A stretch of 64,000 nucleotides of DNA from Desulfovibrio sp. Fe33 (GCF_028532725.1 NZ_JAQKGU010000007.1:62001-126000); one strand, 5' to 3'; positions 28,418 through 42,286 are shown, counted from the first letter of the stretch. Notes: generated by a model not told the origin, from the letters alone. Numbers and translations are program-made.

Positions 28418-28954
28418 CTAGGTGTAGCAGATGGTATTATGGAATACCGCGCTGTCCGTTACAGCCTTGTACTGATGGGCCACATCGGCGTGAAATTTGT
28501 GGACGTCCCCCGGCTCCAGCCTGTGGAGCCGACCTTCGTGGATCAGATCGACCACGCCGCGGAGGACCACAACATGCTCCACCACGCCGAATCGGTGGGC
28601 GGCGGAAACCAGGCGGTGCCCGTTGCGAAGGGTGACTTCGAACAGCTCCATGCGCGTGGCCGGGTCATAGGGAAAGAGTTCCCGGACGAGCATGTCCGGA
28701 TCGCAGGGGATGCCCACCTGACGAAAATCCGAGCCCGTCTTGCTGGAGAAAAACGAGGCCAAGGAAATGTTCAGCCCTGCGGCGATCTTTAATAAGGTAG
28801 TGATGGTCGGGGCGGATTCCAGTCGCTCGATCTGGCCGAGCATGGCTTTGGAAACGCCTGTGAGCAGGGCGGCCTTATCGAGGCTTATCTCTTTGTCATT
28901 TCGACATTTTTTTATTATACCGGCAATGGCGGATCGGATGTCGGTCGGTGGCAC
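28418..28954 (-). CDS. XRE-family regulator with C-terminal cupin domain
   Basis: A 178-residue HTH-cupin regulator. The N-terminal Cro/CI-type helix-turn-helix is ISLDKAALLTGVSKAMLGQIERLESAPTITTLLKIAAGL (about residues 23-62). A small-molecule-binding cupin barrel follows, with VVEHVVVLRGVVDLIHEGRLHRLEPGDVHKFHADVAHQY. The start is a GTG 5 nt after AAGGAG. Such proteins often control amino-acid or polyamine uptake. It diverges from the molybdopterin/aldehyde oxidoreductase island across a 520-nt gap and could control it, but no site proves this. Confidence 0.9.
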   Translation of the reverse strand: MPPTDIRSAIAGIIKKCRNDKEISLDKAALLTGVSKAMLGQIERLESAPTITTLLKIAAGLNISLASFFSSKTGSDFRQVGIPCDPDMLVRELFPYDPATRMELFEVTLRNGHRLVSAAHRFGVVEHVVVLRGVVDLIHEGRLHRLEPGDVHKFHADVAHQYKAVTDSAVFHNTICYT

Positions 28955-29474: not shown

Positions 29475-30491
29475 ATGAAGACCGTTCCAGTTCAGGAAGC
29501 CGTGGGCATGGTGCTGTGTCACGACATGACCAAGATAGTCCCCGGCGAATGCAAGGGGCCGGTGTTCCGCAAGGGACACATCATCGCTGAGGAGGATATT
29601 CAGACCCTTCTGCAAATCGGCAAGGAGCACATTTACGTGCTGGACATGGAGAAGGACTGTATTCACGAGGACGAGGCCGCCCGCCGCATCGCCGCGGCCG
29701 CCGTCGGTCCGCACGTCGCGCTGTCAGACGTTTCCGAAGGGCGCATCAACTTCATCGCGGAGCCCGGTCTGCTCGACGTCAATGTTGAAGCCCTGAACCG
29801 CATCAATTCCATCGAAGAAGTGGTGCTGGCCACTTTGCACACCGGCCAGCAGGTTACTGAGACCCGGCCCGTTGCCGGAACCCGTGTGGTCCCGCTGGTC
29901 ATCAAGGAAGAAAAGATACGACAGGTGGAGGCCATCTGCGCCGAGTACGACTACGTGGTCGGCATCCGTCCGTTCCGGCGGTTCAACGTCGGGCTGGTGA
30001 CAACCGGCAGCGAAGTCTACCACGGCCGTATTCAGGACAAGTTCGGGCCGGTCATCCGCAAGAAGTTTTCCCGGCTTGGTTCCGAGGTCATGGGGCAGAC
30101 GCTGACCTCGGACGACCCTGCCATGACCCGTGACGCCATCCTGTCCTTCATTGCCGGGGGTGCGGAGATGGTCGTGGTCACGGGGGGGATGTCCGTGGAC
30201 CCGGACGACCAGACGCCCACGGCCATCCGCTCCACCGGGGCCGAGGTGATTACCTATGGTTCCCCGACGTTTCCCGGCGTCATGTTCATGGTCGCGGAGC
30301 TGAACGGCGTGCCCATCCTCGGGCTGCCGGGCTGCGTCATGTACTACCGGGCTTCGGTTTTCGACCTTATCGTGCCGCGCATTCTGGCCGGGGAGAAGAT
30401 TGCCCGCGAGGACATCGTGTCCCTGGGGCATGGCGGCTTTTGCGCTACCTGCGAGGTGTGTCGTTATCCCATCTGCCCCTTTGGCAAATAG
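29475..30491 (+). CDS. Molybdopterin-binding (MoeA/MogA-like) protein
   Basis: A 338-residue protein with an N-terminal MoeA-like region (residues 1-170, EAVGMVLCHDMTKIVPGECKGPVFRKGHIIAEEDI) and a MoCF_biosynth molybdopterin-binding fold (about 172-315): VGLVTTGSEVYHGRI, the AMTRDAILSFIAGGAEMVVVTGGMSVDPDDQTP block and GVPILGLPGCVMY. It ends with a cysteine cluster CATCEVCRYPICPFGK not found in standard MoeA, possibly a metal site. It is likely a molybdenum-insertion or cofactor-handling factor for the aldehyde oxidoreductase encoded next. It is about 60 residues shorter than MoeA and has no full catalytic domain set, so a direct MoeA call would be too strong. Confidence 0.85.
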   Translation: MKTVPVQEAVGMVLCHDMTKIVPGECKGPVFRKGHIIAEEDIQTLLQIGKEHIYVLDMEKDCIHEDEAARRIAAAAVGPHVALSDVSEGRINFIAEPGLLDVNVEALNRINSIEEVVLATLHTGQQVTETRPVAGTRVVPLVIKEEKIRQVEAICAEYDYVVGIRPFRRFNVGLVTTGSEVYHGRIQDKFGPVIRKKFSRLGSEVMGQTLTSDDPAMTRDAILSFIAGGAEMVVVTGGMSVDPDDQTPTAIRSTGAEVITYGSPTFPGVMFMVAELNGVPILGLPGCVMYYRASVFDLIVPRILAGEKIAREDIVSLGHGGFCATCEVCRYPICPFGK

Positions 30492-30558
30492 TTCACGGTT
30501 CCCCCGGGGACCCAACGTATCTGCGAGACAGTGAGAACAAATTAGGAGGAAAACTGCC

Positions 30559-33276
30559 ATGATTAAACGGACGCTCCAAGTAAACGGAGTCCCCAGGATC
30601 GTCGTGTGCGAGCCTGAAGAGTCCCTGGCCAATGTATTGCGCCAGAACCTGGGACTGACCAGCGTCAAGATCGGCTGCGGCTCGGGTCAGTGCGGCAGCT
30701 GCACCATCCTGCGGGATGACAAGCTGGTTCGGTCTTGCACCGTCAAGATGAAGCGGGTCAAAAACGAAACCAAAATTATGACCCTGGAAGGTCTCGGCAC
30801 GCCCGACAACCTCCATCCCATCCAGATGGCCTGGATCGCCTTTGGCGGCGCCCAGTGCGGCTTCTGTTCCCCCGGTTTCCTGGTGTCGACCTACGCGTTG
30901 CTGACCGAGAACCCGAGCCCGACCCGCGACGAAGTCCGCGATTGGTTCCAGAAGCATAAGAACGTCTGCCGCTGCACCGGCTACAAACCTTTGGTCGACG
31001 CCGTCATGGCAGCCGCGGAAGTTATGCGCGGCGACAAGACCATGGACGACCTGACCTTCAAGATTCCCGAAGACGGCCGCATCTGGGGCACCAAGTACCC
31101 GCGTCCGTCCGCCGTGGCCAAAGTCACCGGCACCTGGGACTTCGGCGCGGACATGGGCCTGCGTCTGCCCCCCGGAAGCCTTTACTGCGAACTGGTTCAG
31201 GCGGAGGTGTCCCACGCCAACATCCTGTCCATCGACGTGACCGAGGCCGAGACCGTTCCCGGCGTCTTCAAGGTCGTGACCCACAAGGACGTCAAGGGCA
31301 AGAACCGCATCACCGGCCTGATTACCTTCCCGACCAACCTCGGCGACGGCTGGGATCGTCCCATCCTGTGCGACGAAAAGATCTTCCAGTTCGGTGACGC
31401 CATAGCCATCGTCTGCGCCGATTCTCCGCAGGCGGCCAAGGAAGGCGCGGCCAAGGTCAAGGTGGAGCTCGAGCAACTGCCCGAGTACATGAGCGCTCCT
31501 GCGGCCATGGCCGAGGACGCCATCGAAATCCATCCCGGCACCCCCAACGTCTACTACGTGCAGAAAGAGGCGAAGGGCCCGGACACCAAACCCATCTTCG
31601 AGAACGCGGACGTGGTCGTGGAGGGTGATTACTACACCCAGCGCCAGCCGCATATGCCCATCGAGCCGGACGTAGGGTTCGCCTACATCGGCGAAGAGGG
31701 CAAGCTGGTGATCCACTCCAAGTCCATCGGCATCCATCTGCATCTGCTGATGATCGCCCCCGGTCTGGGCGTGGAGCCCGAGAACATGGTCCTGGTCCAG
31801 AACCCCACCGGAGGCACCTTCGGCTACAAGTTCTCCCCGACTATGGAAGCGCTGGTCGGCGCGGCTGCTTTGGCGACCGGACGTCCCGTGTTCCTGAACT
31901 ACACCTGGAAACAGCAGCAGCAGTACACCGGCAAGCGCTCTCCGCAGTTCACCACCGTGCGCCTGGCCGCCTCCAAGGACGGCAAGCTGCTCGGCATGGA
32001 GACCGATTGGACCGTGGATCACGGCCCGTACTCCGAGTTTGGCGACCTGCTGACCCTGCGCGGCGCGCAGTACATCGGCGCGGGCTACGACATCCCGGCC
32101 ATCCGAGGCGAGGGCCGCACCGTGTGCACCAACCACTGCTGGGGCGCGGCCTTCCGCGGCTACGGCGCTCCCGAGTCGGAGTTCCCCTCCGAGGTGTGCA
32201 TGGACGAACTGGCCGAGAAGCTGGGCATGGACCCGTTGGAGCTGCGTTACAAGAACGTCTACCGCAAGGGTTCCACCACGCCTACCGGCCAGGACCCCGA
32301 GGTTTACTCTCTGCCTGAGATGCTCGACAAAATCCGTCCCAAGTATGAAGAGGCGAAGAAGTTCGCGGCCGAGAACTCCACCGACGCCAAAAAGCTCGGT
32401 GTGGGCGTCTCCGTCGGCGTGTACGGCTCCGGCCTGGACGGCCCGGACACCGCCGAGGTGGACATCGCCCTGAACGAGGACAACACCGTCACCGTCTTCA
32501 GCGCTTGGGGCGACCACGGCCAGGGCGCGGACATGGGCACCCTGGGCACCGCTCACGAGGCCCTTCGTCCCCTGAACCTGTCCCCGGAACAGATCCACCT
32601 GGTCATGGCTGACACCAGCCTGGCGCCGGCGGCGGGTCCTGCGGGCGGCAGCCGTTCTCAGGTCGTCGTAGGCCAGGCCATCAAGAACGCCTGCGAACAG
32701 CTCGTCGCAGCCATGAGGAAGCCCGACGGTTCCTTCCGCACCTATGAGGACATGACTGCCGACGGGCTGGAGCTGCGCTACCACGGCAAGTGGTCCGCTC
32801 CGGCCAGTGATTGCGATGCGAACGGCCAGGGCAATCCGTTCTGCTGCTACATGTACGGCGTGTTCCTGTCCCTGGTTTCCGTGGACGTCGCCACCGGCAA
32901 GACCACCGTCGAGAAGATGGTCACCGTGGCCGATATCGGCGTGGTCAACAACTACCTCCTGGTGGACGGCCAGATTCACGGCGGCGTCGCCCAGGGCATC
33001 GGCCTCGCGCTGTCCGAGGATTACGAGGATATCAAGAAGCACGCCAACATGGCGGGCGCCGGTATCCCGTACATCAAGGATATCCCGGACAACATGGAGA
33101 TCATCTACGTTGAGACCCCGCGTCCCGACGGTCCCTTCGGCGCTTCCGGCGTCGGCGAGATGCCATTGACCGCTCCGCACGCGGCGATCATCAACGCCAT
33201 CTACAACGCTTGCGGCGCGCGCATTCGCGAACTGCCGGCCTACCCTGAGAAAGTGCTTGCCGCCCTCAAGGGCTAA
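30559..33276 (+). CDS. mop: Molybdenum-containing aldehyde oxidoreductase (Mop)
   Basis: A 905-residue enzyme of the xanthine oxidase family, very like D. gigas aldehyde oxidoreductase. It oxidises aldehydes to carboxylic acids. The first [2Fe-2S] cluster uses C40/45/48/60 and the second C100/103/137/139, the positions known from the D. gigas protein. The molybdopterin cytosine dinucleotide domain follows (KYPRPSAVAKVTGTWDFGAD, TGGTFGYKFSPTMEAL, GAAFRGYGAPESEF) and the catalytic Glu is E867 in SGVGEMPLT. There is no FAD domain, as in the D. gigas enzyme. The start follows AGGAGGAAA. A terminator directly downstream suggests the enzyme is made in excess of its accessory proteins. Confidence 0.96.
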   Translation: MIKRTLQVNGVPRIVVCEPEESLANVLRQNLGLTSVKIGCGSGQCGSCTILRDDKLVRSCTVKMKRVKNETKIMTLEGLGTPDNLHPIQMAWIAFGGAQCGFCSPGFLVSTYALLTENPSPTRDEVRDWFQKHKNVCRCTGYKPLVDAVMAAAEVMRGDKTMDDLTFKIPEDGRIWGTKYPRPSAVAKVTGTWDFGADMGLRLPPGSLYCELVQAEVSHANILSIDVTEAETVPGVFKVVTHKDVKGKNRITGLITFPTNLGDGWDRPILCDEKIFQFGDAIAIVCADSPQAAKEGAAKVKVELEQLPEYMSAPAAMAEDAIEIHPGTPNVYYVQKEAKGPDTKPIFENADVVVEGDYYTQRQPHMPIEPDVGFAYIGEEGKLVIHSKSIGIHLHLLMIAPGLGVEPENMVLVQNPTGGTFGYKFSPTMEALVGAAALATGRPVFLNYTWKQQQQYTGKRSPQFTTVRLAASKDGKLLGMETDWTVDHGPYSEFGDLLTLRGAQYIGAGYDIPAIRGEGRTVCTNHCWGAAFRGYGAPESEFPSEVCMDELAEKLGMDPLELRYKNVYRKGSTTPTGQDPEVYSLPEMLDKIRPKYEEAKKFAAENSTDAKKLGVGVSVGVYGSGLDGPDTAEVDIALNEDNTVTVFSAWGDHGQGADMGTLGTAHEALRPLNLSPEQIHLVMADTSLAPAAGPAGGSRSQVVVGQAIKNACEQLVAAMRKPDGSFRTYEDMTADGLELRYHGKWSAPASDCDANGQGNPFCCYMYGVFLSLVSVDVATGKTTVEKMVTVADIGVVNNYLLVDGQIHGGVAQGIGLALSEDYEDIKKHANMAGAGIPYIKDIPDNMEIIYVETPRPDGPFGASGVGEMPLTAPHAAIINAIYNACGARIRELPAYPEKVLAALKG

Positions 33277-33296
33277 CGGCACCAAACCGTAATAAC

Positions 33297-33329
33297 GGCG
33301 GTCCGTGCCTTGGCATGGGCCGCCTTTTT
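33297..33329 (+). terminator. Terminator or attenuator between mop and the accessory genes
   Basis: An 8-bp stem GGCGGTCC / GGGCCGCC with one G-T pair (33297-33304 with 33317-33324), a 12-nt loop and five T residues. Read-through or another promoter must serve the genes beyond, which start 17 nt later. Confidence 0.8.
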
Positions 33330-33345
33330 CCGTAAGTGGTGACCT

Positions 33346-35592
33346 ATGGAACAAGCGGAACTGAGACAATGGGAACATCGGTGCATCCAGGAGGAGTCTC
33401 CGCAGTGCGCGGCGGCCTGTCCCCTGCATGTTGACGCCCGGGAATGCTGCTCTTTGCTGGCCGCGCGCCGCATTGACAAGGCGTGGGCCGTACTGGCCAA
33501 AACCATGCCGCTGCCGGGGGTTCTGGCCCGAATTTGCGACGGGCCGTGCAAGACGGCCTGCCTGCGCAAGGACGTAGGCGGGGCCATTGAGATGGAATCA
33601 CTGGAACGGTTTCTGGCGACCTCGGCCAAACCGTCCAAGCCGCCCAGGCCCCTACCTCGCAACGGCAAGTCCGTGGCCGTTATCGGCGGCGGCATGACCG
33701 GGTTGTGCGCGGCCTGGGAGATCGCCCGCAAGGGATTCGCCGTGACCGTGTATTGCGTTGCGCCGGATGTCGGCGCGGCGTTGCCGGAAGGCGCGCTCGA
33801 AGGGGAGCTTGAAGCCATGGACCGCATGGGCGTCACTTTGGAGCGGGGCGTCGAGTCCTCGCCCGAATTGGTGGAGGCCCAATTGGAAGAGATGGATGCG
33901 GTTTTCGTGGACAGCGATGCCGTGGCCGCTTCGGTCCTCAATTTCGGCGAGCCGGACGAAGTGACCCTCGGCACCAATCGGCTGGGGCTTTTCGCCAGCC
34001 GTTCCGGGGAAAAATCGCCTGTCTTCCAGGCTGCGGCCGGACGCCGCGCCGCCAATTCCATCATGCGTTTCTGCCAGGGCGTGTCCATGGTCAAGAGCCG
34101 CGAGCTGGAAGGGCCTTACGATACGCGTCTGTATACCAACCTGACCGGGGTGGATGCCGTGGCCCCTGTGCCCGTCGGCGGCGGGTATGACGAGTCCCGC
34201 GCCGTGGAGGAGGCGGCCCGCTGCCTGAAGTGCGAATGCATGGAATGCGTCAAGGGGTGCGTCTATCTGAAGCATTACAAGCAGTACCCCAAGGTCTACG
34301 TCAGACAGGTCTACAACAACGAGGCCATTGTCCGGGGAACGCGCCAGGCCAACAGGATGATAAACTCCTGTATGCTCTGCGGGCTGTGCGAAACGGTCTG
34401 TCCCGAGGATTTCGCCATGGGCGAGGTTTGCCTGGAGGCGCGGCGCAACATGATCGGCAAGGGCACCATGCCTCCTTCGGCCCATGAGTTTGCCCTGCGC
34501 GACATGGCCTTCGCCGACGGCGGCAAATGCGCCCTGGCCCGACATGCACCGGGCGCGGATTCGAGCGAATATGTCTTTTTCCCCGGCTGTCAGTTGACCG
34601 CCACCGATCCCGGCGGGGCGGAGCGGGCTTATGCCGATCTCCGCAACCGGCTGGGAAGGGTGGGGCTCATTCTTCGCTGTTGCGGAGCTCCCGCCCGCTG
34701 GTCGGGCCGCGAATCCCTGTTCGGGGAATCTCTTGCCGAGCTCAAGGCGGCTTGGGAGGGGCTCGGTTTCCCACGCATCATTGCGGCCTGTCCCTCCTGT
34801 ATCAAAACGCTGCGCGAGGCCATGCCCGAGGCGGAGATCGTTTCCCATTGGTCCGTTCTGAGCGCTCTCGGCCTGCCGGAGAACGCCCGTCGGGATGGAG
34901 GAACCCTGGCCGTGAACGATCCGTGCGCGGCCCGAGAGGACGGGGCGATGCGCAGTGACGTGCGCGGCCTGCTGGACTCCCTGGGGGTCTCCGTGGTCGA
35001 GCCGTATTACACGGGCGAATTGACCCAGTGCTGCGGCTACGGCGGTTTGCTCAACGCGGTGGACCCCGCCCTTGGCGCGACCGCGGCGAAAGCGCGTGCC
35101 GATGCCGTGAACGAGGATTACGTCACCTATTGCGCCATGTGCCGCGAAATGATCGCCCGGACAGGCAAGCGGGCCATGCATCTTTACGACCTGCTGTATC
35201 CCGGCGGTGCGGAGCCTTGTGCGCGGCCCACGCTGGGGCATTCCGAGCGGCGTGAAAACCGTGTCCGCCTGCGCGAGAAGCTGCTTCGGGAGCTGTGGAG
35301 CGAAGCGGACGGCGTTACGGCCGAGGATTTCGAAAAGGTCCGCGTGTCGTGCACCGAAGAGGGCGCTGCGGCCATGGAGTCGAGGCGCATCCTGAAAAGC
35401 GACGTGCAGAAGGTCCTGCTTCAGGCGGAGCGGTCCGGCAAACATCTGGTTCACGGCGGGACCGGCCGCTTCCTGGCCTCGTTCCGACCGGCCGTGGTGA
35501 CGTATTGGGTTGAATACGAATCCGATGGCGACGGGTATCTGGTGCACAACGCCTGGTGTCACCGAATGCATATCGAGGGAGCGCAGCCATGA
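33346..35592 (+). CDS. Multidomain Fe-S oxidoreductase (GltD-like N-terminus, ferredoxin, HdrD-like CCG domains)
   Basis: A 748-residue electron-transfer protein. Residues 1-95 carry GltD-like N-terminal cysteines (C13, C21, C25, C64, C68, C72). A dinucleotide-binding GGGMTG lies at 114-119, but the flavin domain that follows is short and looks reduced. Two ferredoxin-type sets come next (CLKCECMECVKGC near 287, CMLCGLCETVC near 343). Two HdrD-type cysteine-rich domains follow, with CCG at about 445 and 562. The last 110 residues are an extra small domain. This plan suggests linking a dinucleotide or ferredoxin pool to a thiol or disulfide-like partner, possibly the physiological acceptor chain of the aldehyde oxidoreductase. 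The gene overlaps the next by 4 nt. Confidence 0.8.
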   Translation: MEQAELRQWEHRCIQEESPQCAAACPLHVDARECCSLLAARRIDKAWAVLAKTMPLPGVLARICDGPCKTACLRKDVGGAIEMESLERFLATSAKPSKPPRPLPRNGKSVAVIGGGMTGLCAAWEIARKGFAVTVYCVAPDVGAALPEGALEGELEAMDRMGVTLERGVESSPELVEAQLEEMDAVFVDSDAVAASVLNFGEPDEVTLGTNRLGLFASRSGEKSPVFQAAAGRRAANSIMRFCQGVSMVKSRELEGPYDTRLYTNLTGVDAVAPVPVGGGYDESRAVEEAARCLKCECMECVKGCVYLKHYKQYPKVYVRQVYNNEAIVRGTRQANRMINSCMLCGLCETVCPEDFAMGEVCLEARRNMIGKGTMPPSAHEFALRDMAFADGGKCALARHAPGADSSEYVFFPGCQLTATDPGGAERAYADLRNRLGRVGLILRCCGAPARWSGRESLFGESLAELKAAWEGLGFPRIIAACPSCIKTLREAMPEAEIVSHWSVLSALGLPENARRDGGTLAVNDPCAAREDGAMRSDVRGLLDSLGVSVVEPYYTGELTQCCGYGGLLNAVDPALGATAAKARADAVNEDYVTYCAMCREMIARTGKRAMHLYDLLYPGGAEPCARPTLGHSERRENRVRLREKLLRELWSEADGVTAEDFEKVRVSCTEEGAAAMESRRILKSDVQKVLLQAERSGKHLVHGGTGRFLASFRPAVVTYWVEYESDGDGYLVHNAWCHRMHIEGAQP

Positions 35593-35804
35593 GCGTGATA
35601 AAGGTGCCTGGAGCCGGGGCCGACGGCTGGAAATGCGGCCATTGCGACAGGGAAATGGTCATGAAGCCGGTTGAGCTGACGTACCTTAACTCCTTGTTCA
35701 ACGTGGAGTTGCCCGTATGTCCCGAGTGCGGCTATGTGCTCATACCGGAGGCGCTGGCGCTGGGGAAGATGCATCAGGTGGAGCAATTGCTGGAGGATAA
35801 GTAG
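35589..35804 (+). CDS. Small two-CxxC redox protein (DVU_1557-like)
   Basis: A 71-residue protein with two CxxC motifs, KCGHCDRE near residue 17 and VCPECGYV near residue 45. They could form a rubredoxin-like or zinc-ribbon metal site. The segment between them (VMKPVELTYLNSLFNVELP) is hydrophobic and conserved-looking. I recall NCBI naming this family DVU_1557 redox protein, always beside the aldehyde oxidoreductase accessory genes. Its ATG overlaps the stop of the previous gene (ATGA), and the next gene starts 2 nt after its stop, so it is firmly part of the operon. Its partner is unknown. Confidence 0.82.
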   Translation: MSVIKVPGAGADGWKCGHCDREMVMKPVELTYLNSLFNVELPVCPECGYVLIPEALALGKMHQVEQLLEDK

Positions 35805-35806
35805 CC

Positions 35807-36457
35807 GTGTCCCTTGCGCCGCGCCCGCTTTGGGAACGCGAGGAATTGCGCGCCGTGGCCGGTGAGACCCTTCGGCCCGGCGGCTTTGAACTGACCGATC
35901 GGGCTGTGGAACGCATCGGCGCGGTCCCGGGATGGCGGGTTCTGGACGTCGGGGCGGGGCTCGGGGCCACCGTGTCCCGGCTGCGTTCGCGATACGGCGT
36001 CAAGGCGTGGGGCGTGGAGCCGTCGTCGGCCCAACTGGGCCAGGCCCGCGCCGTGCCGGGGCTTGTCCGGGCGAGTGGCGACCGGCTGCCCTTTGCGCGG
36101 GAGCGGTTCGACGCCCTGTTCTGCGAGTGCGTCTTTTCCCTGTTTGACGACAGGCCTGCCGGTCTGGCTGAGTTCCACAGGGTTCTCAAGCCTGGCGGGT
36201 TCCTGGTTCTGTCCGACCTCTGCTCGTCCCGTCCCGCATCGGAAGGCGGGGCGTCCTGCGCGGACCGTGCCGAGCCTTTGGCGGAAACCGTCCGGCTTGT
36301 TCGCGCCCGCGGTTTCGCCGTGGAGTTGCTTGAGGACCACTCCGACCGGCTGCGGGACCTGGCCGCCCGTCTTGCCTGGATTGACGGAGGCGGCTCCTGC
36401 GGCTGCGGACGGGACTTGGGCTATTATCTTATGATCGCGAAAAAACAAGGAGTGTAA
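35807..36457 (+). CDS. Class I SAM-dependent methyltransferase (DVU_1556/TrsM-like)
   Basis: A 216-residue Rossmann methyltransferase starting at GTG behind TGGAGGA. Motif I is VLDVGAGLGATVSRL (about residues 45-59), the acidic end of strand 2 is VEPSSAQL, motif II-like SGDRLPFARERFDALFCECVF, and post-motif HRVLKPGGFLVLSD. The C-terminus has GGGSCGCGRDLGYYLMIAKK. The fold resembles small-molecule C-methyltransferases. I recall the family name DVU_1556 (TrsM) for proteins in this setting. It lies between the small redox protein and the C-GCAxxG-C-C protein. Its substrate is unknown; a cofactor or an activated acid is possible. Confidence 0.85.
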   Translation: MSLAPRPLWEREELRAVAGETLRPGGFELTDRAVERIGAVPGWRVLDVGAGLGATVSRLRSRYGVKAWGVEPSSAQLGQARAVPGLVRASGDRLPFARERFDALFCECVFSLFDDRPAGLAEFHRVLKPGGFLVLSDLCSSRPASEGGASCADRAEPLAETVRLVRARGFAVELLEDHSDRLRDLAARLAWIDGGGSCGCGRDLGYYLMIAKKQGV

Positions 36458-36459
36458 CG

Positions 36460-36912
36460 ATGCTTGACGACGCAGGACTCCGGGTCATGGAATTGGCGGG
36501 AAAGGGGTATTGTTGCAGCCAGATGCTGGTCGTCATGGCTTTGGACGAGATGGACCGAGAGGACCCGGACCTGGTTCGGGCCGCAGGCGGGCTGTGCAAC
36601 GGGTTGGGGGACTGCTCCGGGCCATGCGGCGTGCTCACCGGCGCGGTTCTCGCGCTCGGCCTGTATGCGGGCAAGGGGACGGACATGGAAGAGCCGGTCG
36701 ACGTGCTGCCGGTGATGCTTGAAACCCTGCGCGACTGGTTTATCGAGCGGACGCGCGAATACGGCGGAATCACCTGCGGGGCGATTCTTGAGGGCGGCTG
36801 CGGCAGCCCTCATCCGACTCGCTGCGGCGGTTTGGTGGCCGAGGCCAACGCAAAAGTGCGCGAGATTCTTGTCGAGAACGGGCTGGACCCGGCCGAGGGG
36901 CGCGAGCTGTAG
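36460..36912 (+). CDS. C-GCAxxG-C-C family protein (DVU_1555-like)
   Basis: A 150-residue protein with the spaced cysteines of the C_GCAxxG_C_C family: C18/C19, C46, C52, C56 (LCNGLGDCSGPCGVLTGA), C106, C114 and C122. The family is thought to bind a metal or Fe-S cluster through these cysteines and often sits near redox enzymes. It starts 2 nt after the methyltransferase stop, and its stop shares a base with the GTG of the radical SAM gene. Within this island it may be a redox or cluster-carrier partner of the radical SAM enzyme; that is inference. Confidence 0.87.
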   Translation: MLDDAGLRVMELAGKGYCCSQMLVVMALDEMDREDPDLVRAAGGLCNGLGDCSGPCGVLTGAVLALGLYAGKGTDMEEPVDVLPVMLETLRDWFIERTREYGGITCGAILEGGCGSPHPTRCGGLVAEANAKVREILVENGLDPAEGREL

Positions 36913-38285
36913 TGAGCCGAAGCCCGAGAAGCGTTTGCCCGGTTTGCCTGCGGCCCATCCCGGCCGTGCATGAGACCGTCGGCGACGAGACGTTCCTGGT
37001 CAAGTCCTGCCCCGAACACGGGGAGTTCCGCGTGGTGGTCTGGCGCGGCGAGCCTTCCTTTTCCGGGTGGGCGCGGCCCAAGGTCCCGTCGAGCCCCCGG
37101 ACGCCCTTTACCTCCGTGGAGCGAGGCTGTCCGTTGGACTGCGGGCTGTGTGACGCTCATCGTCAGCATACCTGCACCGCGCTTTTGGAAGTCACCTGGC
37201 GGTGCGATCTGGGCTGCCCGGTCTGTTTCGCTTCATCCGGCAGGCAGGCCCCGTCCGATCCGTCCCTGGCCGAGCTTGGCCGCCTGTTTGATCGGGTCGA
37301 GTTGGCCTCGGGGCATTGCAATATCCAGCTTTCCGGCGGCGAGCCGACTGTGCGCGAGGACTTGACCGACATTATCCGGTTGGGCAAGGAGAAGGGGTTT
37401 CCGTTCATCCAACTGAATACCAACGGTCTCAGGCTCGCGCACGAACCGGGCTTTGCCGACCGCCTCGCCGAGGCCGGGCTGGATTCGGTTTTTCTGCAAT
37501 TCGACGGCACGCGGGATGACATTTACGAGACCCTGCGGGGCCGCTCCTTGTTCAACACCAAGCTCAAGGCCCTGGACGCGCTGGCCGCTGCGGGGGTGGG
37601 CGTTATCCTGGTGCCCACGTTGGTGCCGGGAGTCAACGATGACGACTTGGGCGACATTTTGCGTCTGGCCGTGGAGCGTTCCCCGGCCGTGCGCGGGGTG
37701 CATTTCCAGCCGGTCAGCTATTTCGGCCGCTACCCCAAGCGGCCGGACGATGCGGAGCGCATCACACTGCCGGAGATCATGCGCGGCCTCGAAATACAGA
37801 CCGGCGGGATGCTCAAGGCGGCTGACTTCAGCCCGCCCGGTTGCGAACATGCCTTCTGTTCCTTCCACGCCAACTATGTGGTCACTGAGGAGGGCGGCCT
37901 GACTCGCCTTTCTTCGGGCGGGTCGTGCGGCTGCACCCCGCGTCCGGCTTCCGAAGGGGCGGATGCGGCCAAGGCGTTCGTCAAGCGGCAGTGGGCCGCG
38001 CCGGACAAGCGGCTCCCCATGGCTTTCGACGGGGCGCAGGCCGGGACAACGTCCGGGGACGGCGAGCCTGCGGACGCCCTGGACGCCTTTATACGGCGGG
38101 CGGCCACCCATACGCTGGCCGTGTCGGCCATGGCTTTCCAGGACTGTTGGACCTTGGACCTCGAACGGCTCAAGGGATGCTGTATTCACGAAGTGTCGCC
38201 GGATGGGCGGCTTATCCCGTTCTGCGCCTACAATCTGACGTCCATGGACGGCGAGACGCTTTACAGGGGGAAGTGCCATGGATAG
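36912..38285 (+). CDS. Radical SAM enzyme of the Tes/MJ0619 type (TrsS-like)
   Basis: A 457-residue radical SAM protein. The cluster motif CDLGCPVC is at C98/C102/C105. An upstream cysteine-rich region is characteristic: C9/C12 with CPEHGEF (C33), then C73/C77/C80/C88 in RGCPLDCGLCDAHRQHTC. This arrangement is that of tetraether synthase and MJ0619-type enzymes, which bind extra clusters and act on unactivated carbons. SAM-binding elements are QLSGGEPTVREDL and FLQFDGTRDDIYETLRG. The C-terminus has more cysteines (CEHAFC, CGC, GCC). I recall NCBI calling this family radical SAM (seleno)protein TrsS; here the relevant positions read Cys. It overlaps the CoA-ligase gene by 8 nt. The reaction is unknown. 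Confidence 0.87.
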   Translation: MSRSPRSVCPVCLRPIPAVHETVGDETFLVKSCPEHGEFRVVVWRGEPSFSGWARPKVPSSPRTPFTSVERGCPLDCGLCDAHRQHTCTALLEVTWRCDLGCPVCFASSGRQAPSDPSLAELGRLFDRVELASGHCNIQLSGGEPTVREDLTDIIRLGKEKGFPFIQLNTNGLRLAHEPGFADRLAEAGLDSVFLQFDGTRDDIYETLRGRSLFNTKLKALDALAAAGVGVILVPTLVPGVNDDDLGDILRLAVERSPAVRGVHFQPVSYFGRYPKRPDDAERITLPEIMRGLEIQTGGMLKAADFSPPGCEHAFCSFHANYVVTEEGGLTRLSSGGSCGCTPRPASEGADAAKAFVKRQWAAPDKRLPMAFDGAQAGTTSGDGEPADALDAFIRRAATHTLAVSAMAFQDCWTLDLERLKGCCIHEVSPDGRLIPFCAYNLTSMDGETLYRGKCHG

Positions 38286-39567
38286 CGCCAATCTTGATCG
38301 CTGGCTGGCTGGCCGCATGGGGCGGGACACGATTCCGTCGGTACGCGAGTTGCGCGATTGGCAGTTGCGGCGGCTTCGGGATTTGGTGGATCACGCCAAA
38401 ATCGGCAGTCCGTTTTACGCCCGTCATCTGAACGGAATTCGCGGCGCGGACCTGGATTCCCTTGAAGCTTTTTCCCGGCTGCCCGAGATAGGCCCGAAGG
38501 AGTTGCGTTCCGATCCCGATGCGTTGTTGAGCGTATCCCGCGACGACATAGAGAGGGTCGTCACTCTGTCCAGTTCCGGCACGACGGGGGAGCCCAAGCG
38601 GATTTTTCATACCGCCGACGATCTTGAGGCCACCACGGATTTCTTCGGTTGGGGCATGTCCAACATGGTCGGGCCTGGAGAAGCCGCGCTTATCCTTTTG
38701 CCCGGCGCGCGGCCCGGCGGAGTCGGGCGGTTGCTCGACGAGGCGTTGTCCCGCCACGGTTCGCGGGCCGTATCCCATGGCGAAATGACGGACGCTGATG
38801 CGGCCGTGAGCCAGTGCCTTGCCGAGAAGGCCTCTTGTATTGTCGGATCTCCGGCCCATGTGAACCTGTTCGCCCACGCCTGGACGGCGCGCGGTCTTCC
38901 GCGCGGGGTGATCCGGTCCGCACTGCTCTGTTGGGATGTGATTCCCGAGGCGGTTTGCTTGAACGTGGCCGAGCGGTTGGGTTGCGGAGTCTTTCGCCAT
39001 TGGGGCATGATCGAGACCGGTCTGGGGGGCGCCGTGGAGTGCTCGCCCGGCTCGGGAATGCATCTGCGCGAAACCGACGTCTTCCTCGAGATTGTGGACC
39101 CGTATACGGGGCGGCTGCTTCCGGACGGCGAATTCGGCGATATGGTCGTGACCACGCCTCTGAAAATGGGGATGCCGCTCATTCGTTACCGCACCGGCGA
39201 CGTGGGGCGCATTCTGCCCGGAGACTGCGGCTGCGGCAGTCCGCTGCGCAGATTGGACCCTCTGGTCCGGCGCAGGCGCGGGGGCGTGGTGTCCGCGTCC
39301 GGTATTTTGTCCCTTTGGGAACTGAATGAGGTTGTGTACGGCACACCGGGCGTGGCGGATTTTGCGGCCTGGTTGGATGGCGGCACCTTGCGGCTCGTGG
39401 TGTGCGGCAACGCCTCCTGCGAGGCCGTATCGCAGGCGCTCGGAACCCTGCCTGCCGTGGCCAATGGACTTGCGGCCGGGACGCTTCGGGTGGATATTGA
39501 AAACAAAAATGGCGTCGCGCCCGCCGTTCCAGGGCTAGACAAGCGGCGCATAGCGATAGGGAGCTGA
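38278..39567 (+). CDS. AMP-forming CoA-ligase-like enzyme (PaaK/DVU_1553-like)
   Basis: A 429-residue adenylate-forming enzyme of the size of phenylacetate-CoA ligase. The phosphate-binding loop is LSSSGTTGEPKRI (about residues 98-110). Downstream come FRHWGMIETGLGG (adenine region) and the RYRTGDVGRI motif, followed by CGCGSPLRRLD. The N-terminal stretch VRELRDWQLRRLRDLVDHAKIGSPFYARHL is PaaK-like. It should activate a carboxylic acid as an acyl-AMP and perhaps a CoA thioester. In this island the acid could be the product of the aldehyde oxidoreductase or a precursor of a cofactor. It starts 4 nt ahead of the last codons of the radical SAM gene. Confidence 0.87.
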   Translation: MDSANLDRWLAGRMGRDTIPSVRELRDWQLRRLRDLVDHAKIGSPFYARHLNGIRGADLDSLEAFSRLPEIGPKELRSDPDALLSVSRDDIERVVTLSSSGTTGEPKRIFHTADDLEATTDFFGWGMSNMVGPGEAALILLPGARPGGVGRLLDEALSRHGSRAVSHGEMTDADAAVSQCLAEKASCIVGSPAHVNLFAHAWTARGLPRGVIRSALLCWDVIPEAVCLNVAERLGCGVFRHWGMIETGLGGAVECSPGSGMHLRETDVFLEIVDPYTGRLLPDGEFGDMVVTTPLKMGMPLIRYRTGDVGRILPGDCGCGSPLRRLDPLVRRRRGGVVSASGILSLWELNEVVYGTPGVADFAAWLDGGTLRLVVCGNASCEAVSQALGTLPAVANGLAAGTLRVDIENKNGVAPAVPGLDKRRIAIGS

Positions 39568-39570
39568 GCA

Positions 39571-40563
39571 ATGAAAGCGTTTGTGCGAGAAGTGGCCGGA
39601 TTGGCGCGGGCCGGAGAGCCCTTTGTCCTGGCCACGGTGGTCGAGAGTTCCGGGTCCACGCCGAGGTCTTCCGGAGCGAAGATGGCCGTGCGCCGTGACG
39701 GGTCCATCATAGGCACCGTGGGCGGCGGCCTGGCCGAGGCCCGCGCTTGCCGGTCGGCCAGGGAGATGCTGGCCGGAAGGGTTTTAGACGGCCGGGCGCG
39801 GCTGATGTTCGTGGACATGACCCAGGAGCTGGCCGCCGACTCGGATATGATCTGCGGCGGCGGTCTGTCAATGTTTCTCGAAATGGCGTCGCCTGGCGGG
39901 GAGTGCGCCCGCGTGTATGCCGAGTTGGACGATATGTTGCGCAAGGGCGATGCCGCGACGCTCGAGACCCGTTTCCAGGGCGGCGAAACACCGCTCGTCA
40001 TCGGGCATGACATCGTTTCCGGCAGGCCGGAAGGCGAGACGCCTGTCTTCAACCGGGACGGCGATCCCATGGTCCTGGCCGAGCCGTTCATTCCGCCCGC
40101 GCCGCTCTATATCTTCGGGGCGGGGCATGTTTCCCGATTCACCGCACGCGTGGCGGCCATGGTGGGCTTTCGCACCGTTGTGCTGGACGATCGTGAGGAT
40201 TTCGCCAACCGGGAACGATTCCCCGAGGCCGACGAGGTGGTTGTATTGCGGTCCTTTGCCGGATGTTGCGACGTGTTCAGGGAAGACCCCGAGGCGTTCG
40301 TGGTCATAGTCACCCGGGGACACCTGCATGACCGCAATGTCCTGGCCGAGGCCCTGCGGACCCAGGCTCGCTATGTGGGGATGATCGGCAGCTCCACCAA
40401 GCGTAACAAGATTTACGCGTCCCTGTTGTCGGACGGTTTCGACCAGGCGGATATCGATCGTTGCCACAGTCCCATCGGGCTTCCCATCGGCGGGCAGACG
40501 CCGGAGGAAATCGCGGTCAGCATCGTGGGCGAGCTCATCAAGGTCCGGGCGGGAAAGGCATGA
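39571..40563 (+). CDS. XdhC-family molybdoenzyme maturation factor
   Basis: A 330-residue XdhC-like protein, a chaperone that binds sulfurated molybdenum cofactor and delivers it to xanthine-oxidase-family enzymes. The N-terminal domain has VVESSGSTPRSSGAKMAVRRDG and GTVGGGLAEA. The C-terminal Rossmann domain has PLYIFGAGHVSRFTARVAAMVGF and the signature ARYVGMIGSSTKRNKI, with CHSPIGLPIGGQTPEEIAVSIVGEL near the end. Its natural client is the aldehyde oxidoreductase upstream. The start follows GGGAGC; its stop overlaps the next gene's ATG. Confidence 0.93.
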   Translation: MKAFVREVAGLARAGEPFVLATVVESSGSTPRSSGAKMAVRRDGSIIGTVGGGLAEARACRSAREMLAGRVLDGRARLMFVDMTQELAADSDMICGGGLSMFLEMASPGGECARVYAELDDMLRKGDAATLETRFQGGETPLVIGHDIVSGRPEGETPVFNRDGDPMVLAEPFIPPAPLYIFGAGHVSRFTARVAAMVGFRTVVLDDREDFANRERFPEADEVVVLRSFAGCCDVFREDPEAFVVIVTRGHLHDRNVLAEALRTQARYVGMIGSSTKRNKIYASLLSDGFDQADIDRCHSPIGLPIGGQTPEEIAVSIVGELIKVRAGKA

Positions 40564-41687
40564 TGGGCGGTCTCGCTGCAATCATTCCCGCTGCGGGGCT
40601 GTCCTCTCGCATGGGCCGTTTCAAGCCGCTCCTTCCCCTTGCCAACGGGACCGTTCTTTCGCGCTGCGTGACGCTTTTCAGGAAATGTGGCGTGGAACGA
40701 ATCGTGACGGTCACGGGCAAGCGGGCCGACGAGGTGGCGGCCTGCGCCGCGGAAGCCGGGGCCGAGGCGGTTTTCAATCCGTCTTATGAACGGGGCATGT
40801 ATTCCTCTGTTCTGACCGGCGTGCGTGCTCTGGGAACTGACGTGAGCGCCTTTTTCATGCTCCCGGCGGATATCCCCCTGGTCAGGCCCGAGACCGTGAA
40901 ACGGCTCATCGACGACTTCGAGCGGTTGCGGCCGTCGGTGTTGTATCCCCGGTTTGCCGGGGAGCGGGGGCATCCTCCTCTCATTTCCGCTGATATCATT
41001 CCGGCCATTCTGGCTCATGACGGTTCCGGCGGACTCCGGGCGGTTCTCGACGGCGTCGAAGCGGACGCCCGTCATGTTGATGTGCCGGATTTCGGCGTGG
41101 TTCATGATCTGGACCGTCCCGAGGATTACGCGTTGGCCTTGGGCGTGGCGGGAATCGGATATCCCCTTGAGGACGAATGCCGCGAGTTGTTTCGGCTCCA
41201 TGGGGTCTCCGATCATATCGCCGGGCACTGCCGGGCCGTGTCCAAGGTGGCCGTGGCTCTGTGCTGTCGGCTGAACGATCGGCAGGGGACTCCCCGGCTA
41301 GATCCGGGCCTTGTCCTGGGAGCGGCTCTGACTCATGATATCGGCAAGGGGACCAAGCGGCATGAGGCCGCCGGCGCGGAATTGCTGCGCGCCCATGGGT
41401 TTCCGGACGCCGCCGAGATCGTGGCCGCTCATTTCGACCTGACCCTCGCCTGGGACGCGCCTGTTAGCGAGAAGGAAGTCGTTTTCCTGGCCGACAAGCT
41501 GGTCCGGTGTCACGGACCGGTCCCTCTAGATCAGCGGTACCTGGAGAAGGTGGAAATGTACCGTCACGAAGCGGGCGCGGAAGAGGCCATATTGGGGCGT
41601 CTTGAACGCGCCCGGGCGGTCATGGCCCGTCTCGACAGGGAGTTGAATGACTCCTCTGAGCGCATAGCCCTGGAGGCCCTGTCGTGA
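40560..41687 (+). CDS. MobA-like nucleotidyltransferase fused to an HD domain (DVU_1551-like)
   Basis: A 375-residue fusion. Residues 1-195 are a MobA/MocA-like NTP transferase: IIPAAGLSSRMGRFKPLLPL at the start, PSYERGMYSSVLTGVRAL and MLPADIPLVRPETVK. This is the type that makes molybdopterin cytosine dinucleotide, the cofactor form in Mop enzymes. Residues from about 215 form an HD phosphohydrolase-like domain: SDHIAGHCRAVSKVAV, LTHDIGKGTKRHEAAGAELL and AAHFDLTL. HD domains hydrolyse phosphoesters. A transferase and hydrolase in one chain suggests proofreading or recycling of the nucleotide cofactor. It overlaps XdhC by ATGA and the phosphatase gene by 4 nt. Confidence 0.87.
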   Translation: MMGGLAAIIPAAGLSSRMGRFKPLLPLANGTVLSRCVTLFRKCGVERIVTVTGKRADEVAACAAEAGAEAVFNPSYERGMYSSVLTGVRALGTDVSAFFMLPADIPLVRPETVKRLIDDFERLRPSVLYPRFAGERGHPPLISADIIPAILAHDGSGGLRAVLDGVEADARHVDVPDFGVVHDLDRPEDYALALGVAGIGYPLEDECRELFRLHGVSDHIAGHCRAVSKVAVALCCRLNDRQGTPRLDPGLVLGAALTHDIGKGTKRHEAAGAELLRAHGFPDAAEIVAAHFDLTLAWDAPVSEKEVVFLADKLVRCHGPVPLDQRYLEKVEMYRHEAGAEEAILGRLERARAVMARLDRELNDSSERIALEALS

Positions 41688-42286
41688 TCGTGCTCCTGCG
41701 TCACGGCCGAACGGCGGGCGGCGATGGGGTATGTGTCGGCAGGACACCTCTGCGACTTTCCGCTGAAGGCGAGGCGCAGGCGCGTGCGCTGGCCGAGGAG
41801 CTGGGCGCGGTTCCGTTCGCGCGGCTGTATTCCAGCCCCGCTGTTCGGGCGCGGGACACCCTCGGGCCGCTGGCGGAGAGGCTCGGGCTGCCCGTGGAGA
41901 TATTGCCCGAGATGGACGAGATCGACATGGGCGCGTGGGACGGTTTGGCCTTCGATGATATCCGGAGACGTTTTCCGGAGGAATACGCGGTGCGGGGTAG
42001 CCGATTCGGCAGTTTTCGCGCGCCCGGCGGGGAGAGCTTCGAAGACGTGGCCCGTCGGGCCATGAACGTCTTGGAGGGATTGGCCGACGGGAAGCATCCC
42101 GTGCTGGTGGCGACTCACGCGGGCGTGATCCGGACTGTGCTTTGCCGCGTGACGGATCATCCTTTGGACGACCTGTTCCGGTTCAAACCTGGACACGCCC
42201 GGTGCACGGTGCTGCGCCGGGAAGGAAACGGTTTTGGCCTTGCGGCGGCCGATCTGGAAGCCGGGGCTATACGTGCTTTTTTTTGA
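41684..42286 (+). CDS. Histidine phosphatase (phosphoglycerate mutase-like) family protein
   Basis: A 200-residue phosphatase starting at GTG, overlapping the preceding stop. The phosphohistidine motif is VLLRHGRTAGG (His7), the second Arg motif is YSSPAVRARDT, the acid is in EMDEIDMGAWDG, and the second His is in VATHAGVIRTVLC. Small members of this family include alpha-ribazole phosphatase (CobC) and sugar phosphatases. As last gene of the aldehyde oxidoreductase island it may remove a phosphate from a pathway intermediate. A CobC role is possible, but no cobalamin genes are nearby. Confidence 0.88.
   Translation: MIVLLRHGRTAGGDGVCVGRTPLRLSAEGEAQARALAEELGAVPFARLYSSPAVRARDTLGPLAERLGLPVEILPEMDEIDMGAWDGLAFDDIRRRFPEEYAVRGSRFGSFRAPGGESFEDVARRAMNVLEGLADGKHPVLVATHAGVIRTVLCRVTDHPLDDLFRFKPGHARCTVLRREGNGFGLAAADLEAGAIRAFF

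Follow-up and report, generated by a model that had tools for sequence, protein, structure and literature searches.

A redox and radical SAM gene core separable from the aldehyde oxidoreductase of an anaerobe gene cassette

Why should the gene of an aldehyde oxidoreductase (AOR) share an operon with an AMP-forming ligase, a radical S-adenosylmethionine (SAM) protein and a methyltransferase? The question is raised by a cassette of eleven genes at positions 29475-42286 (+) of a 64-kb window, i.e., the whole stretch of 64,000 nucleotides of Desulfovibrio sp. Fe33 that was analyzed (GCF_028532725.1, NZ_JAQKGU010000007.1:62001-126000). The cassette encodes the molybdopterin-dependent AOR Mop, the iron-sulfur (Fe-S) flavoprotein Dic, a small DVU_1557-family protein, the methyltransferase, a C-GCAxxG-C-C protein (CGC), the radical SAM protein TrsS, the ligase, an XdhC-family protein, a nucleotidyltransferase-HD fusion (NTP-HD), a phosphatase and a MoeA-like protein (Table 1). 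A preliminary description had taken these genes for a tightly packed island on one strand, and the coordinates, the strand, the family matches and the gene spacing bear this out: apart from gaps of +67 nt between the MoeA-like gene and mop and of +69 nt between mop and the Dic gene, all junctions measure from -8 to +3 nt. Its statement that eleven genes follow Mop has to be corrected, since only nine lie downstream and the count of eleven includes Mop itself and the MoeA-like gene upstream of it. It was right that ligase, radical SAM protein and methyltransferase go beyond the XdhC and cytidylyltransferase that are needed to finish the molybdopterin cytosine dinucleotide (MCD) cofactor, and it took them as a sign of a further modified ligand, cofactor or peptide, or of a dedicated route for processing the acid product of Mop. 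We find that Dic, DVU_1557, methyltransferase, TrsS and ligase constitute a core that is separable from Mop and the MCD block.

TrsS loci with and without Mop

Genome contigs were searched with a TrsS alignment, whereby 80 loci were retained, and neighboring genes were identified by profiles derived from those of the window. Five phylum-level groups, namely Desulfobacterota, Clostridia, Chloroflexi, Acidobacteria and Alphaproteobacteria, share the order Mop, Dic, DVU_1557, methyltransferase, CGC, TrsS and ligase, often with XdhC, NTP-HD and phosphatase behind it. The Mop neighborhood is thus nearly constant among distantly related anaerobic bacteria. In the 64 loci with both Mop and TrsS, Dic was found 64 times, CGC 62, DVU_1557 and the methyltransferase 60 each, the ligase 58, NTP-HD 39, phosphatase relatives 34, XdhC 31 and the MoeA-like gene 29 times, all of these counts being lower bounds because some loci are truncated. 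A first pass over 247 genomes of the family to which the window belongs yielded Mop in 167 and TrsS in 164 of them. After the discordant genomes had been re-examined, both genes were present in 165 genomes and neither in 72, with Mop only in six (G224, G247, G315, G327, G372, G380) and TrsS only in four (G198, G366, G415, G434), so that 237 of the 247 genomes are concordant (Fisher p ~1e-49, kinship ignored). Among the Mop-only genomes, just G315 is more than 90% complete, yet its assembly comprises ~820 contigs. Of the TrsS-only genomes, G366 and G415 have Dic at a contig start, so that Mop may sit in the gap. In a sample of 198 genomes from the phylum, TrsS accompanied Mop in all 14 carriers (one Mop, in G104, being a fragment), and five further genomes had an above-cut-off TrsS without such a Mop. 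The strong co-inheritance of the accessory genes with Mop, which the preliminary description had expected, therefore stands.

This association is dissolved in 14 loci that contain TrsS without Mop, here called class II (L148, L071, L076, L249, L250, L251, L155, L223, L073, L075, L070, L252, L069, and L137). In the TrsS tree, 13 of them form one clade (support 0.944) with L148 adjoining, opposite 99 sequences on the Mop-associated side (support 0.834), and the trees of the ligase (support 1.0), the methyltransferase (1.0) and DVU_1557 (0.985) split the same two classes with no exception. Class II retains the ligase in 13 of the 14 loci and Dic parts, DVU_1557 and the methyltransferase in 12 each, and none of the 14 yielded XdhC, NTP-HD, the MoeA-like gene or the phosphatase with the window profiles. 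No match to the Mop model was obtained in the genomes of L069, L070, L071, L076, and L223 (E up to 1e-20), of L137 and L148 (E up to 1e-30), or of L252 (E up to 1e-60). The tie between the accessory genes and an enzyme of the xanthine oxidase family, as drawn in the preliminary description, is in part refuted, as the 14 class II loci have the core without Mop. The genomes of L073 and L075 contain other enzymes of this family, none of them above the Mop cut-off. To our knowledge of the papers searched, neither the Mop-free class nor its missing XdhC, NTP and MoeA-like genes, nor the DVU_1557 tail treated below, has been described before.

The class II core stands beside other enzymes. According to Pfam, these are HGD-D together with BcrAD (L070, L252, L137) or HGD-D (L223), RACo (L073, L075, L249, L250, L251), a MaoC-like protein (L069, L137) and OYE (L076), all of which were absent from all 62 Mop+TrsS loci compared. 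Moreover, the core is adjoined by NuoEF-like proteins in L137 and by a NarI-like protein with a CCG protein in L071, which fits a role in electron supply. Several further candidates for class II were discarded: L246 and L247, locally Mop-free and with an OYE gene nearby, fall on the Mop-associated side of the TrsS tree and have a full Mop on other contigs, L225, L226, and L228 contain a piece of Mop, and in L227 and L229 Dic lies at the contig end. As a separate observation, L155 (60-4614) and L223 (6141-10757) carry a tandem TrsS pair, the ligase and a DUF5714 protein, with Mop, Dic and DVU_1557 not found in these stretches; the DUF5714 protein of L155 shows a weak C_GCAxxG_C_C match (E 0.0038).

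Mop and the proteins of the core

The window Mop matches the structures 1dgj and 1sij/1vlb over its full length. The AORs of D. gigas and D. desulfuricans have been crystallized, and both organisms carry the cassette. The D. gigas enzyme (DgAOR) has for many years served as a structural model for the xanthine oxidase family. Genome G212, which matches a D. gigas AOR fragment at 100%, has the MoeA-like gene, Mop, Dic, DVU_1557, methyltransferase, CGC, TrsS, ligase, XdhC and phosphatase (L192/L193), with no NTP-HD found beside these genes. Genome G427 matches the AOR fragment of D. desulfuricans ATCC 27774 at 100%, and its locus (L222) has the D. gigas gene set minus XdhC, plus NTP-HD. In L222 and in L072, L074, and L078 of related genomes, XdhC is not beside Mop, and NTP-HD and the phosphatase are retained. 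The native enzyme from D. gigas cells contains a pyranopterin cytidine dinucleotide with an oxo ligand where a sulfido would be, and was obtained in active and inactive forms, whereby the inactive form has another dithiolene oxidation state and is rescued by strong reductants (PMC3877041). In the window, the XdhC and cytidylyltransferase families both adjoin Mop with scores above their cut-offs, and the block of MoeA-like gene, XdhC, cytidylyltransferase-HD and phosphatase belongs to Mop as its MCD-maturation block.

TrsS resembles the tetraether synthase Tes (GDGT-MAS, MJ0619). It aligns to the Tes structure 7tol with 277 bits and reaches 339 bits with the curated Tes model, which is under the cut-off of 450. 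The ligands of Tes include C9, C12, C33, and H36 as well as C73, C77, and C80 with a histidine (PMC9433317), and all seven cysteine and histidine positions named by number have same-number equivalents in TrsS. Among ten aligned TrsS sequences, the rubredoxin-like site C9/C12/C33/H36 (C-x2-C-x20-C-x2-H), the N-terminal cluster ligands C73/C77/C80/H83, the CX3CX2C motif C98/C102/C105 and M407, which aligns with the labile Met439 of Tes, are invariant. Tes Tyr459, which is conserved among archaeal enzymes and dispensable in assays, is not kept, being E427 in the window TrsS and variable in the other aligned sequences, and residues 309-399 do not align to Tes. Since this region and Tyr459 are not shared and the score lies under the cut-off, a lipid substrate is not implied. 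A selenocysteine behind the split TrsS of L124 was considered and dismissed, as the frame changes where the assembly has a run of N and not at an in-frame TGA.

The AlphaFold model of the ligase (predicted local distance difference test, pLDDT, 93.1) has its closest solved folds in PaaK1 and its relatives at full length (TM-score ~0.8 for PaaK1), and these include PaaK-family members other than phenylacetate-CoA ligase, namely NatL2, ClxA, and AjiA1. The two-domain PaaK fold is complete, and K422, the C-terminal catalytic lysine of this type, is nearly invariant. Conserved positions include D47, G51, G53, and C108 in the methyltransferase and C19, C56, C106, and C122 in CGC, and the CCG-type motifs of Dic are CC445/CPSC482 and CC562/CAMC596. 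The C-terminal region of Dic (~35320-35592, +), which has no Pfam hit, is a separate small open reading frame (ORF) in L070, L252, L148, L249-L251 and other class II loci.

Of 92 distinct DVU_1557 orthologues, 82 have EDK as their C-terminal tripeptide, and the final residue is lysine in 95%; in four class II loci (L070, L252, L069, L137) the lysine is third-last instead. The other cassette families have no comparable conserved tail, save for the MoeA-like protein, where FGK is the final tripeptide in 14 of 33 orthologues. We considered that the EDK tail might be a by-product of the Shine-Dalgarno (SD) sequence of the next gene and rejected this. Codon usage argues that the tail is selected at the protein level, as E, D, and K are each encoded by both of their synonyms and 29 of the 82 tails are without an SD-like 4-mer. 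The predicted model of DVU_1557 (mean pLDDT 69.6) has a folded two-CxxC core, and its pLDDT falls below 50 for residues 62-71, so that the tail is probably flexible or disordered. The core shows a weak likeness to the zinc-binding N-terminal domain of MqsA (E 0.027); a MasE-like similarity (E 0.004), ranked after zinc fingers, was too weak and was not used.

Possible roles of the core

We tentatively favor, without giving it even odds, that the operon combines two systems, namely Mop with ordinary MCD maturation and a core for making or maintaining a separate redox group, which would be used together with Dic and DVU_1557, whereby CGC joins the core in the Mop-associated version. Since the core occurs without Mop, it is probably concerned with a separate redox carrier and not with a decoration of the Mop cofactor. 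Computation shows that core and Mop block are separable, that TrsS has the Tes-type set of ligands, that the ligase has a full PaaK fold including the lysine, and that the tail is conserved; as to the chemistry, its product and the way in which electrons flow, we infer the following. A carboxylate would be adenylated by the PaaK-type ligase, TrsS would act on it by radical chemistry of the Tes type, with the C-terminal cluster holding the radical, and the methyltransferase would tailor the TrsS product. This product might then act with DVU_1557, which has a flexible tail with a conserved final lysine, in an electron path between a client enzyme and Dic. It could also be that DVU_1557 is itself a carrier and not a redox protein, with the (L)EDK tail as the site at which a group activated by the ligase and built by TrsS and methyltransferase is attached or a modification is made, yielding a protein-tethered redox cofactor, which we regard as quite unlikely. 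If this were true, a tethered cofactor would serve Mop and, in other anaerobes, unrelated low-potential enzymes. The conserved tail also leaves room for the modified peptide that the preliminary description named. With a separable core, the question is no longer how a cofactor is decorated but which redox carrier or modified protein is to be sought; several phyla offer candidate clients, and the C-terminus of the ~71-residue DVU_1557 is a precise place to look.

Several data weigh against the idea of two systems. The strongest are two loci in which NTP-HD and TrsS domains share one open frame (L121:3882-6392, L135:8342-11335); together with the order CGC-NTP-TrsS in several Mop-associated (class I) loci, they tie TrsS to the maturation of MCD or Mop in that class. 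In vitro, flavodoxin accepts electrons from DgAOR (PMC10223205), and hence Dic need not be the partner of Mop. Furthermore, L155 and L223 have TrsS and ligase, and DVU_1557 and Dic were undetected there. Finally, crystal structures can exclude a modification only if it is stable and stoichiometric in the purified enzyme, and so do not speak against a transient one.

The fusions and the gene order, as well as the near-perfect co-occurrence of Mop and TrsS, would suit the earlier idea that the extra genes tailor the molybdenum cofactor of Mop, its ligand or Mop itself. Yet the AOR of the cassette-bearing D. gigas contains plain MCD with no sulfido, and the core exists without Mop, XdhC, NTP and MoeA-like genes in 14 loci, several of them in genomes with no Mop-model match. 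Tailoring of the Mop cofactor is thus not supported, and we consider this explanation very unlikely. A better chance, still on the unlikely side, is given to a processing of the acid that Mop makes from an aldehyde, in which the ligase would form the coenzyme A (CoA) thioester and TrsS and methyltransferase would act further on it; in class II, other CoA-thioester enzymes would replace Mop. The complete PaaK fold of the ligase agrees with this, as do the class II neighbors HGD-D/BcrAD and MaoC-like, which are families of acyl-CoA chemistry. However, Tes uses two SAM per C-C bond (PMC9433317), and radical SAM chemistry of this kind is costly for catabolism, neither a transporter nor a beta-oxidation gene is present among the ten cassette genes scanned, and the carrier-like tail of DVU_1557 would be left unexplained. 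About as improbable as tailoring is the proposal that Dic, DVU_1557, and CGC keep the dithiolene or pterin of Mop reduced and active, with the other core genes building part of the reductase. The inactive DgAOR, which differs in its dithiolene oxidation state and is revived by strong reductants (PMC3877041), would be a fitting target, and the gene set is rich in cysteines and Fe-S sites, but Dic parts and DVU_1557 are also found without Mop, and such a reductase has no obvious need for the ligase and TrsS.

Cassette annotation, related gene sets and further loci

The scan with NCBIfam and Pfam covered ten of the eleven cassette genes, excluding the last one (phosphatase), and for nine of the ten a dedicated NCBIfam model was matched above its cut-off; the remaining one, MoeA-like, matched only general molybdopterin-binding models, with scores under the NCBIfam cut-offs. 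The family names (DVU_1551, 1553, 1555, 1556, and 1557 families, TrsS, diclust_near_Sec, XdhC_rel_AOR) imply that the set has already been recognized by NCBI curators. The respective models (NF045645, NF045646, NF045663-NF045669) describe the same set as the window cassette but bear general names only and no further function. An assigned function of the AOR neighborhood or a functional study of the cassette was not found in the literature searched.

Table 1. Genes of the Mop cassette in the window, with their best family matches.
Feature	Position	Strand	Match
MoeA-like/molybdopterin-binding protein, Cys-rich C-terminal tail (CPFGK)	29475..30491	+	Pfam MoCF_biosynth, 84 bits
Mop, molybdopterin-dependent aldehyde oxidoreductase, 905 aa	30559..33276	+	NF045668, 1672 bits (cut-off 1100), residues 2-904
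Dic, Fe-S flavoprotein, two CCG-type motifs	33346..35592	+	NF045663, 985 bits (cut-off 530); Pfam Fer4_20, Fer4_17, CCG
DVU_1557-family small protein, two CxxC motifs, C-terminal LEDK	35589..35804	+	NF045645, 100 bits (cut-off 60)
SAM-dependent methyltransferase, DVU_1556 family	35807..36457	+	NF045667, 206 bits (cut-off 155)
C-GCAxxG-C-C protein (CGC), DVU_1555 family	36460..36912	+	NF045669, 169 bits (cut-off 103)
TrsS, Tes-like radical SAM protein, Cys form, uninterrupted frame	36912..38285	+	NF045646, 690 bits (cut-off 490), full length
AMP-forming ligase, PaaK fold	38278..39567	+	NF045666, 421 bits (cut-off 300)
XdhC-family AOR maturation factor	39571..40563	+	NF045664, 403 bits (cut-off 350)
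MocA-like NTP transferase + HD domain fusion (NTP-HD), probable MCD cytidylyltransferase	40560..41687	+	NF045665, 433 bits (cut-off 315)
Histidine phosphatase (PGAM/CobC-like)	41684..42286	+	read from sequence, no family scan

Other gene sets overlap with the cassette. The maturation sets of selenium-dependent molybdenum hydroxylases (XdhC, YgfJ/MocA) share XdhC and a MocA-like cytidylyltransferase beside an enzyme of the xanthine oxidase family, and are not known to contain a Tes-like radical SAM protein, PaaK-type ligase or DVU_1557 protein. In mycofactocin and pyrroloquinoline quinone (PQQ) cassettes, a radical SAM protein likewise goes with dedicated oxidoreductases and a small protein whose tail is conserved. 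As in such pathways of ribosomally synthesized and post-translationally modified peptides, a small protein with conserved C-terminal residues is encoded in the cassette of the radical SAM gene; no peptidase family was detected among the ten scanned genes, and, unlike in mycofactocin and PQQ, the small protein of the window has a predicted folded two-CxxC core. A passage on Clostridium ljungdahlii describes two tandem sets, each with Mop, a flavin/CCG Fe-S protein, a four-Cys protein and a C_GCAxxG_C_C protein, and treats just these four proteins, as a possible membrane-linked electron transport (PMC5640608). A passage of a transposon study of D. vulgaris Hildenborough ties chlorate toxicity to DVU1179, another aor.

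The cysteine-rich tail at the C-terminus of the MoeA-like protein (30440-30491, +) reads CEVCRYPICPFGK. In L111 (5624-7387), NTP-HD is fused to an alpha-ribazole-phosphatase-like domain immediately after TrsS, and this part, homologous to the cassette phosphatase, matches alpha-ribazole phosphatase models. Elsewhere in the genome of the window, L062 (G000:C2:225000-244500, at ~7.0-11.1 kb) encodes another Mop (1412 bits), accompanied by a MoeA-like gene of its own, and the other cassette families were not found in the stretch around it. By eye and with no family scan, an ORF of L062 (867-2744, -) resembles a tungsten aldehyde:ferredoxin oxidoreductase, and the divergent ORF upstream of the cassette (28418-28954, -) resembles an XRE/cupin regulator.

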